DNA of 33,841 nucleotides from Candidatus Aciduliprofundum sp. (GTDB taxonomy: Archaea; Thermoplasmatota; Thermoplasmata; Thermoplasmatales; Aciduliprofundaceae), in contig WAPW01000103.1 in NCBI GenBank assembly GCA_015520565.1, forward strand, positions 1-33,841, given 5' to 3'. Position 1 is the first letter of the stretch. The number at the start of each line of letters is the position of its first letter. The position numbers and the translations under genes are program-made. This document shows positions 29,794 through 32,417 of the stretch, one piece after another. Under the pieces are notes generated by a model that was not told the origin of the DNA, made no database searches, and was given only the letters and a program-made list of their open reading frames with translations.

Positions 29794-29900
29794 GCCGGGG
29801 TGGCTCAGCCTGGTGGAGCGTCGGACTCATAGGGTATATTAATCTCCACCTCTAATCCTGAGAAATCCGAAGGTCCCGGGTTCAAACCCCGGCCCCGGCA
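29794..29900 (+). tRNA. tRNA-Met (CAU), elongator type, with a ~33-nt intron at 37/38
   Basis: Acceptor GCCGGGG/CCCCGGC, D arm GCTC...GAGC, anticodon stem TCGGA/TCCGA, CAT at 29828-29830, T arm CCGGGTTCAAACCCCGG; intron 29832-29864. Confidence 0.93.
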
Positions 29901-30242
29901 TTAAAGCATAAATATTATTCCTCTCCAGCCAATGCTTAAAAATATCAAAGAGCTTATAAATATTATAACTCCTATACCAAAGAGAAGCAGGCTATCTTTC
30001 CAAGATATATTGTATATCTTATCAGTATCTTCTATATCATCAATGTCCACCTCTGCGGACCTAAATATTCTCCTTTTTCTAAACCTGAGGAGATTTATTG
30101 TTGGACTTGTGGAGAAACCTCCAATTAGCATTACAACTATGCCAACTATCAAAACAATATAAGGAGTTATGAAGAGGAGTATTCCTATGATTATTGAATA
30201 TTTTATAATTGATTTGGCTAGCTTTCTCTTGTCTATTTCCAT
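29901..30242 (-). CDS. Small multi-pass membrane protein of unknown function
   Basis: At least three hydrophobic segments (SIIIGILLFITPYIVLIVGIVVMLIGG; DSLLLFGIGVIIFISSLIFLSIG). Confidence 0.65.
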   Translation of the reverse strand: MEIDKRKLAKSIIKYSIIIGILLFITPYIVLIVGIVVMLIGGFSTSPTINLLRFRKRRIFRSAEVDIDDIEDTDKIYNISWKDSLLLFGIGVIIFISSLIFLSIGWRGIIFML

Positions 30243-30280
30243 TATTTATCCGTATATGGATATGAGATTTAACTCTTTGC

Positions 30281-31525
30281 TCATTCTTTAACAAAGAATG
30301 GAGGAGCCATTGCAAGCACTATAAATCCTATTATTATCAAAGCCGACCCAACTCCAAAAAGATCTGCAAAATAGCCCATTAAAAATGATAATGTGGCAGC
30401 AATAACAGTTTTTACTTGGGATTCTACACTCAATCCCGATGCCATTACTCTGCTCTTAATTCTATCTGATATGTACCCAACATTCATAGGCCTCCTTATG
30501 TTCTGAAATACATAAATTAATACAAAGAATATTATTGAAGCTATTAGCAAATTGAAATGATAAAATAATCCTGCAAATACTACAAGAAGAGCGCCAAATA
30601 TAAGAGTAGCGTTTATGGCCCTTCCGAGATTCCCAATTTTATTCACTATTTTGTAGGAATTACGCGATGAATATGAGGTTAGGAGGTATATAAAAAAGTA
30701 TATGATTCCTATAATTATTGCCGTTCTCTTCTCAGGGGCTAAAAATACAAATATTGGTATTCCGAGAGCAAAAACCTTCAAAACTGCCTGAAGATAATCT
30801 TTTGTTGCTTCATAGGATGCTGAGAATAGAGACGAGTTAAATATGGCTTTTAAAACTATTTTATCCTTAAACATACTCCGAAAATCCACAAATGTTCTTT
30901 TAAATTGCTCTCCAATCTTCCCCGATGTTTTTCTTATCTCACCATCAAGTATTTTTGGGTATGTGGCAAGATTTATGAAATTGAGCACATAGGGAATTAT
31001 GGTTATTATGAATATATCTCTATAATTGCCAGTGTAAAAAACTATAAAGCCTGCAAGAAGTGCATTAACAGCTGAGCCAAGCTGAGAGTATGAACGGGTA
31101 GCTCCATAGTACTCAACTTTCTTATCCGATATTCCATTTATTTTCAAATATTCCAATATCATAGCTTTATGTGTGCCTGTTCTGTAAGCATCACCTAAAG
31201 CATAGAGCACCATAGCTGCAGCTAAAGGAAAGAATGATTTAACTGAGAAGAATATTGAAAAAGAAACCATATAGGATGCCATGGACATGAGCATAGAGCG
31301 CCTCCTTCCAAAAGCATCAGCATAAACTCCCGTGGGTATTTCAAAGACATAGACAGATACAAGTTTTATGGCGTACAAGATTCCTATATCAGTATAACTC
31401 AAACCTGCAGAGTATTTGAGAAAGAGAAGAAGAAAGGGCTCAAATAATCTAAGATTCTTCAAAAAACCATAGGCAGCGAATTTATAAAACATTCTATCCT
31501 TTGGTATCACTGCATAATCATGCAA
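30281..31525 (-). CDS. Major facilitator superfamily transporter
   Basis: ~12 hydrophobic segments, MFS motif A-like VFEIPTGVYADAFGRRRSM. Confidence 0.9.
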   Translation of the reverse strand: MHDYAVIPKDRMFYKFAAYGFLKNLRLFEPFLLLFLKYSAGLSYTDIGILYAIKLVSVYVFEIPTGVYADAFGRRRSMLMSMASYMVSFSIFFSVKSFFPLAAAMVLYALGDAYRTGTHKAMILEYLKINGISDKKVEYYGATRSYSQLGSAVNALLAGFIVFYTGNYRDIFIITIIPYVLNFINLATYPKILDGEIRKTSGKIGEQFKRTFVDFRSMFKDKIVLKAIFNSSLFSASYEATKDYLQAVLKVFALGIPIFVFLAPEKRTAIIIGIIYFFIYLLTSYSSRNSYKIVNKIGNLGRAINATLIFGALLVVFAGLFYHFNLLIASIIFFVLIYVFQNIRRPMNVGYISDRIKSRVMASGLSVESQVKTVIAATLSFLMGYFADLFGVGSALIIIGFIVLAMAPPFFVKE

Positions 31526-31554
31526 AAGTTACTATTTTAATTTTACTTTTATTT

Positions 31555-31953
31555 TTACATCCAGAGGTAGTAATCTATTACTTTTTCCATATCTTTATGC
31601 TCATTCTTCTTCTTCATAAGATTTCTCAAACTCTTATTCTCTCCCAAATACCCAGATAGAATTATCGCAAGGCCCCTATTTTCTTTCATAAGTGTGTGAG
31701 ATTTATACCTTATTGATGCCCACTTGCCTTCCAAGGAGAACATCTCTTCTAGCAACTTATCAATATCCTCCCTAAGCTTTTCTATCTCCTCCCCACTTTT
31801 CTTTTTCTCCCTATATCCTTCAAGAGCCAACAATATAACTTTCTCTGGGGGTATATTATAGCGAGTTGATACTTCTTTTATTATATTTTCCGTATGTTTG
31901 TTTAGCTTAAATTTTTTCTTCTTTAACCTTCCCGCTTTCAACAGGACCTCCAT
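31555..31953 (-). CDS. Coiled-coil/helical protein of unknown function (second gene of fluoride-riboswitch operon)
   Basis: 132 aa; ATG at 31953 lies inside the 3' end of the upstream ORF (47-nt overlap); no TM segments. Confidence 0.7.
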   Translation of the reverse strand: MEVLLKAGRLKKKKFKLNKHTENIIKEVSTRYNIPPEKVILLALEGYREKKKSGEEIEKLREDIDKLLEEMFSLEGKWASIRYKSHTLMKENRGLAIILSGYLGENKSLRNLMKKKNEHKDMEKVIDYYLWM

Positions 31954-32254
31954 TTCCTCTCATCTCCCTCAAAAGTGCTTTATTTTCCTCTCCCAGCTCA
32001 TCAATCCAACGCTCCATTCTCTCTTGATCCTCCTCTGCCTTCTCACAAAACTTGGTAAGATCTTCAACTTCCTCTTTCATCCTCCTTATCTTCTCTTCCA
32101 GCTCTTTTTTCCTTTTTAACAGGGCCTCTTTATCGTTCATCTCAAAGTACCTATTCATAGCAGCTATTCTCTCATAGAGAAATCTATCAAAATCATCTTC
32201 CTTCATATTTCGTATCTTCTCAAACAATTCCTTGGGTATTTCTACCTCTAGCAT
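31907..32254 (-). CDS. Coiled-coil protein of unknown function (first gene downstream of fluoride riboswitch)
   Basis: MLEVEIPKELFEKIRNMKEDDFDRFLYERIAAMNRYFEMNDKEALLKRKKELEEKIRRMKEEVEDL...; AUG 5 nt after AAGGUGG SD (track start 32263 is GTG). Confidence 0.75.
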   Translation of the reverse strand: MLEVEIPKELFEKIRNMKEDDFDRFLYERIAAMNRYFEMNDKEALLKRKKELEEKIRRMKEEVEDLTKFCEKAEEDQERMERWIDELGEENKALLREMRGNGGPVESGKVKEEKI

Positions 32255-32270
32255 AGGGACCACCTTTTAA

Positions 32271-32318
32271 ACAAGGAGCCATCAGCCTTTCGGCATTAGG
32301 TGGGCCCCATCACCTTGT
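32271..32318 (-). promoter_or_regulatory. Fluoride riboswitch (crcB motif)
   Basis: Minus strand ACAAGGUGAUGGGGCCCACCUAAUGCCGAAAGGCUGAUGGCUCCUUGU: P1 GGGGCC/GGCUCC, P2 GCC-GAAA-GGC, pseudoknot AGGUG/CACCU, conserved GAUG and CUGAUGGC, closely paralleling the Thermotoga petrophila fluoride aptamer as I recall it. Confidence 0.92.
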
Positions 32319-32333
32319 AAATGCGAAGTAAAA

Positions 32334-32342
32334 ATAATATAA
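32334..32342 (-). promoter_or_regulatory. Putative archaeal TATA box for the riboswitch operon
   Basis: Minus-strand TTATATTAT, ~25 nt upstream of the 5' end of the aptamer, placing the TSS near the start of the riboswitch. Confidence 0.5.
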
Positions 32343-32417
32343 GTAATTATCGGATTTCTCTATCAAAATTTATCGTATTAAAGTGAAATATAAAATAGTA
32401 TAATTCAATACAACTCT

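Follow-up and report, generated by a model that had tools for sequence, protein, structure and literature searches.

A predicted translational fluoride riboswitch ahead of an apparently undescribed pair of overlapping coiled-coil genes in archaea

Introduction

Which genes are under the control of a fluoride riboswitch in an archaeon that seems to have none of the proteins expected behind it? Fluoride riboswitches are known mainly as controllers of exporters, and Fluc/CrcB and CLC-F are the proteins linked to them in other organisms. The window analysed here, a stretch of 33,841 nucleotides corresponding to contig C103, belongs to an archaeal genome of 1.51 Mb (99.6% complete; G000 hereafter), and neither the proteins of the window nor those of the whole genome gave a match to CrcB (PF02537) or CLC (PF00654). 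An earlier note on this DNA had described a fluoride switch heading an operon of two coiled-coil ORFs, an MFS transporter and a small membrane protein, and had proposed that the pair and the MFS protein form an undescribed module, with the latter as a candidate exporter. Its remark that no CrcB/Fluc or CLC gene lies behind the switch is borne out, both at the locus and genome-wide. The reading that we favour, and hold to be rather probable, is that the riboswitch turns on translation of a two-gene unit, ORF1-ORF2, in a fluoride response other than export, from which the MFS gene is separate.

The comparisons covered the genus of the window (G000-G003), its family (f1, 18 genomes), 61 genomes of its order, against which RF01734 was run, and, for the pair, 390 genomes sampled across the phylum. 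A search of genome contigs with a narrow alignment returned four named loci with close homologues, from Aciduliprofundum sp. and DHVE2 group archaea, which belong to heat- and acid-loving lineages. HF crosses membranes at low pH, and the pair would give direct access to the question of how cells without known exporters cope with fluoride under such conditions; it is small and testable, its link with fluoride recurs in three families of archaea, and Aciduliprofundum boonei is in culture.

The riboswitch and its genes

A fluoride riboswitch aptamer (RF01734) lies at 32266-32323 on the minus strand, upstream of the pair as previously claimed, and is matched end to end by the covariance model (32.6 bits, E=6e-7). 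This is slightly below the Rfam gathering score of the family (34), so the element is absent from a default scan; the orthologous switches in G001, G002 and G003 exceed that score in the RF01734 search, which makes the membership of the window element very likely. Its core spans 32275-32314 (minus strand), and the element has a P1 stem (GGTG/CACC), a short P3 stem-loop (GCC-GAAA-GGC) and a pseudoknot between the P1 loop and the 3′ strand, which reads GGGGCC:GGCTCC in the window and GGCGTC:GACGCC in the f1 copies linked to hydrogenlyase-like (hyf) operons, and an identical core was found at 10 orthologous loci. In secondary structure, pseudoknot, consensus bases and position in a 5′ leader the element resembles the crcB motif, from which it differs in that its target genes are apparently undescribed. 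Judged from its sequence, the riboswitch at 32266-32323 (minus strand) is very likely genuine and is predicted to bind fluoride.

About 10 nt past the aptamer core follows GGTGGTCCCTATG, comprising the Shine-Dalgarno and the start of ORF1 (31907-32254, minus strand), the first gene of the pair, which begins with ATG and encodes a coiled-coil protein of 115 aa with homologues in 13 of the 61 genomes. ORF2 (31555-31953, minus strand; 132 aa) overlaps it, as had been noticed, by 47 bases that include the ORF1 stop codon. In the non-overlapping parts, compared with G001 and G003, ORF1 has a pN of 0.08-0.10 against a pS of 0.69-0.77, and ORF2 a pN of 0.16 against a pS of 0.76-0.82; because of this low pN relative to pS, both are genuine protein-coding genes under strong purifying selection. 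The term operon is supported for the overlapping pair only, and a continuous transcript from the switch through the MFS gene, as first proposed, is not.

Divergent from the riboswitch operon lies a gene for an inorganic pyrophosphatase (PF00719; 32418-32945, plus strand), a member of a fluoride-sensitive enzyme family that is also close to the pair in G003. As a target of the riboswitch it was ruled out, being on the opposite strand.

Translational masking

The Shine-Dalgarno region of ORF1 (GGTGGTCCCT; 32255-32264, minus strand) is complementary to the aptamer strand at 32298-32310. In the switches ahead of the pair, one aptamer strand (GGGGCC-CACC) supplies the pseudoknot and the 3′ arm of P1 and is complementary to GGTGGTCCC at the Shine-Dalgarno, with duplex energies of -13 to -16 kcal/mol (-16 kcal/mol in the window), and in the hyf class of f1 the corresponding strands are GGCGTC-CACC and GGTGACGCC, at about -12 kcal/mol. 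Complementarity between the pseudoknot strand and the Shine-Dalgarno occurs in 23 of 23 f1 riboswitches; in every f1 comparison the cognate strands outperform at least 26 of the ~30 swapped ones, and the unconstrained MFE folds of all 23 f1 leaders have 4-5 of the 5 Shine-Dalgarno bases paired. Moreover, the masking helices of the pair and hyf classes differ by two compensatory base-pair changes (G-C to C-G and C-G to U-A), which are directly visible in the sequences. Part of the complementarity arises because P1 reads CACC and the Shine-Dalgarno GGTG, and masking and pseudoknot use the same aptamer strand.

The leader sequences indicate that the window switch most likely acts on translation. 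Without fluoride, the aptamer strand would pair with the Shine-Dalgarno of ORF1 and hide the ribosome site, whereas with fluoride the pseudoknot would be stabilised and the GGGGCC/CACC strand held off the Shine-Dalgarno. The freed site would allow the translation of ORF1 and, via the gene overlap, that of ORF2 too. In this apparent masking the window switch would differ from the crcB motif of bacteria, which commonly use a terminator. Masking does not hold as a general rule across the order: outside f1 the complementarity is mixed, weak or absent.

The MFS neighbour

Behind the pair, on the same strand and in agreement with the first description, follow the MFS gene (PF07690, E=2e-19) and the gene for a small membrane protein of 113 aa (29901-30242, minus strand; no family match). 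The MFS start, formerly given as TTG 31525, is more likely GTG 31510, because a start with the motif (V/L)IPKDRMFYKF is common to linked and unlinked orthologues (as GTG/TTG-ATACCCAAGGA or nearly so); the predicted protein would thus have 409 aa (30281-31510, minus strand).

A single operon, with the MFS protein as an exporter of fluoride or a means of relieving its toxicity and the pair as accessory proteins, would account for the common strand, for the gap of ~45 nt to the corrected MFS start with no terminator-like site (in a terminator scan unsuited to archaea) and for a gene order kept in the four genus members; an unrelated MFS_1 gene also overlaps ORF2 of the pair in G027. However, the MFS gene adjoins the pair only in G000-G003. 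Outside the genus its orthologue lies elsewhere and the pair keeps its riboswitch, the two being on different contigs in G006, G007, G010, G011, G012, G015 and G016. The earlier note had named homologues never associated with fluoride riboswitches as a refuting result, and the MFS orthologues outside the genus are indeed away from the switch. The MFS gene also has its own TATA-like box (TTAAAATA; 31533-31540, minus strand), a candidate separate promoter 22 nt upstream of the start. A TTAAATA-like box ends at exactly this distance in all four genus members and 21-24 nt from the start in the unlinked orthologues of G006, G011 and G013, and none of these seven genes shows a Shine-Dalgarno at its start; leaderless promoters of archaea are expected to look like this, with a box at a fixed distance and no Shine-Dalgarno. 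Furthermore, if the switch works, as it seems, on the translation of ORF1, this alone would leave a gene ~740 nt downstream uncontrolled, and the closest curated MFS models, those of tetracycline/multidrug efflux or LacY-like proteins, are matched far below their cut-offs. For these reasons we consider the single operon very unlikely, and the MFS protein neither as a module part nor as a fluoride exporter finds support; judging by the putative promoter and the gene order, it is probably a neighbouring, separate transcription unit outside the fluoride unit.

The small membrane protein goes with the MFS gene and not with the pair: it follows the MFS gene in G001-G003, and also in G011, where the latter is unlinked. 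The profile search for PDB relatives of the MFS protein gave none, and the sigma-70 and terminator scan, whose models are unsuited to archaea, performed at or below chance. In G027 (distant family f4) the MFS_1 gene that overlaps the end of ORF2 (L111:7124-8302) did not turn up among the orthologues of the window MFS. At the other end of the cluster, the 3′ end of a tRNA gene (29794-29900, plus strand; Rfam 56.4 bits), which has an intron following its CAU anticodon, abuts the stop codon, on the opposite strand, of the gene for the small membrane protein; ARAGORN, in bacterial mode, gives no call for it.

Targets across the order

The covariance search detected RF01734 in 46 of the 61 genomes, and the DNA at all 63 listed matches was extracted and the downstream genes sorted. 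The first gene (NADHdh family, PF00146) of a formate-hydrogenlyase-like (hyf) operon follows 29 switches and the coiled-coil pair 24 (11 in f1, 11 in f3 and two in f4, in G020 and G027), while the other 10 precede a MutS_V (MutS-like) gene, which in the fully read loci has a second, similarly sized ORF behind it. The apparent targets in the order are thus a hydrogenlyase-like complex, proteins of the MutS type and a pair without a name, and no exporter is among them: neither CrcB nor CLC is found downstream of any of the 63 switches in the 61 genomes.

An association of crcB RNAs with mutS and formate hydrogen lyase has already been reported (Weinberg et al. 2010, PMC2864571), and the order of the window uses both (29 hyf-like and 10 MutS-like loci), to which the pair, lacking a family name, is added as a third target class. 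The hydrogenlyase and mutS links being published, it is the pair that is apparently an undescribed target family of a known riboswitch, and no description of it in this role was found in the titles and abstracts of the open-access literature. The undescribed module suggested in the earlier note is thereby reduced to its coiled-coil part, with 24 of the 63 switches in three families; among archaeal genomes with RF01734 the pair recurs, and the MFS gene is linked in the genus only.

The pairs of f3 and f4 are taken to be true homologues of those in f1, because an ORF2 HMM built from f1 members only and run on 4228 ORFs ranks these riboswitch-linked genes among its top matches; directly behind f1 come the f4 genes, at E 5e-12 and 2e-11, and the f3 genes are found at E 2e-6 to 0.1. 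The ORF1 HMM is weaker, and outside the family its three best matches, at E 0.002-0.02, are genes in position one, from a g13 genome, G027 and G019. The genus g13 (family f6) has the pair with no detected riboswitch. In the survey of 390 genomes of the phylum, convincing matches to the pair are confined to the order, and the three matches outside it are weak, two of them being ribbon-helix-helix (RHH) proteins.

Within a genome, the targets of the switches are hyf, one of the other two (the pair or the MutS-like gene), or hyf together with one of these, and no genome among the 61 (63 switches) has both pair-linked and MutS-linked switches. This exclusivity would fit a structural complex that shields nucleic acid or an enzyme sensitive to fluoride and takes the place of the MutS-like genes found elsewhere in the order. 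However, the split between pair and MutS follows phylogeny and may simply reflect descent, so that we regard this explanation as unlikely.

As for the exporters themselves, CrcB is present in two of the 18 f1 genomes (G014 and G017) and CLC in none. The two CrcB-bearing genomes, 79% and 71% complete, respectively, gave no match to the fluoride riboswitch, a coincidence that is no more than suggestive. In families f3, f4 and f6 a CLC protein is mostly present, and none of the 63 switches precedes one. Compared with systems based on Fluc/CrcB and CLC-F, the genome of the window lacks both proteins and the pair is without transmembrane segments. The unit probably belongs to a fluoride response other than export, in archaea mostly devoid of Fluc and CLC. 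The bolder proposal, that ORF1-ORF2 represents a fluoride-resistance complex of a new class, induced by a translational riboswitch and replacing Fluc/CLC-F in this archaeal lineage by means other than export, is tentative and on balance doubtful.

Several minor observations concern these loci. The f1 CrcB genes (L181 and L182, at G014:C145 and G017:C46) are beside a conserved small upstream ORF, and a CrcB-like match in G002 (E 4e-4, 50 aa) was dismissed as apparently antisense to a rubrerythrin-like ORF. In family f6 (L136, L139 and similar loci) the switches lie ahead of two adjacent ORFs of ~500 aa, the first of which matches MutS_V but shows no clear domain for mismatch recognition. The genome of the window contains two more fluoride riboswitches, L009 (C71:10104-10165) and L010 (C64:23560-23620), both ahead of a hydrogenlyase-like operon and with the pseudoknot strand (TGACGCC) repeated past the aptamer, over the Shine-Dalgarno; their similarity may reflect a mixed or duplicated assembly.

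The proteins of the pair

The AF2 model of ORF1 (pLDDT 83) has helices at residues 8-15, 19-39 and 42-100, and a fold search with it returned no structural relatives. In the model of ORF2 (pLDDT 88), two strands (2-7 and 11-16) are followed by helices at 19-32, 36-44, 54-112 (59 residues) and 120-131, the long helix being the conserved core of the family (WAxxRY...KENxxLAIxLxG); profile searches of the PDB with ORF2 gave generic coiled coils only. No transmembrane segments are shown in either protein, and the two are not recognisably homologous (hhalign probability 0.8%).

The N-terminus of ORF2 (residues ~1-50) shows a different affinity. Residues 11-52 match phrog_3887 "transcriptional regulator" (E 9.5e-6), PSK_trans_fac is matched by four of the 24 ORF2 members (best E 1e-4), and the Foldseek matches include CopG, KacA, MatP and AmrZ, every one at E >1 (for CopG, with a TM of 0.66-0.70 over the target length). 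Pfam lists no RHH model for the ORF2 of the window. ORF2 thus seems to resemble RHH regulators (CopG/Arc, RHH_1, PSK_trans_fac, phrog_3887) in a predicted strand-helix-helix arrangement at ~10-50 with weak but repeated matches, and MatP in its domain order, RHH then coiled coil. On the other hand, it differs from RHH regulators in its scores below the curated cut-offs, in a conserved core that is a coiled coil, in its constant partner ORF1 and in the absence of the RHH part from f3 and f4. From these profile and model likenesses we consider the N-terminus RHH-like, below formal membership of the RHH superfamily. The initial description of the small ORFs as coiled coils agrees with their helical models.

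ORF1 and ORF2 probably form one hetero-oligomeric coiled-coil complex, as their co-occurrence and overlap suggest, in which ORF2, and perhaps ORF1, would carry a DNA-binding-type N-terminal domain in f1. DNA binding would not be the core function of the pair, because the f3 proteins, which are shorter (~51 and ~66 aa, with a 4-base gene overlap at many loci), lack the RHH part.

The pair promoter

Upstream of the aptamer, at 32338-32351 (minus strand), lies the TATA-like promoter element GATAATTACTTATA, a candidate operator that is conserved at the promoters of pairs that have a riboswitch and of those that have none. Most f1 pair operons share the 14-base consensus G(A/T)TAATTA(C/T)TTATA, either upstream of the aptamer or, in riboswitch-less paralogous pairs, upstream of the Shine-Dalgarno. 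Exact matches to GWTAATTAYTTATA across whole genomes are pair promoters only in G000 (2/2), G001, G002, G003 (2/2), G006, G010 (2/2) and G011; as exceptions, one further site occurs in G007, and in G012 three sites lie away from its pair, and the backward pattern, used as a control, has a single match in nine genomes. Since ORF2 is RHH-like and the element is almost confined to pair promoters, autoregulation by the RHH-type protein is likely, and the complex would probably act at GWTAATTAYTTATA to tune the promoter of its own genes. However, this sequence overlaps with the TATA box and might be just a conserved core promoter.

An RHH-like protein with a dedicated promoter element could also be a fluoride-induced transcription regulator of other fluoride genes, in a two-step regulon. 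In contrast with this idea, the exact and one-mismatch genome scans revealed no convincing wider regulon: with one mismatch allowed, a single further site is shared by all four genus members, in the interval between asnS and a divergently oriented gene, and the element is absent from hyf promoters. It is also absent from the f3 and f4 pairs, the versions without the RHH domain, and we see only a minor chance for such a regulator.

Two small overlapping genes with an antitoxin-type RHH-like domain, an apparent autoregulatory element and paralogous copies are likewise reminiscent of a toxin-antitoxin or defence-type module that has captured a fluoride riboswitch. However, PADLOC, Pfam and NCBIfam gave no convincing match of the pair to a toxin or defence family beyond coiled-coil noise, there is no toxin-like fold, and 24 riboswitch associations in three families argue against a chance capture, all of which makes this origin highly improbable.

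One of the paralogous copies is in the genome of the window itself (L119, G000:C96:2064-2757), where it has the same promoter element and no riboswitch, and similar extra copies occur in G003, G004, G006, G010, G011 and G016, some of them directly upstream of the riboswitch-linked pair.
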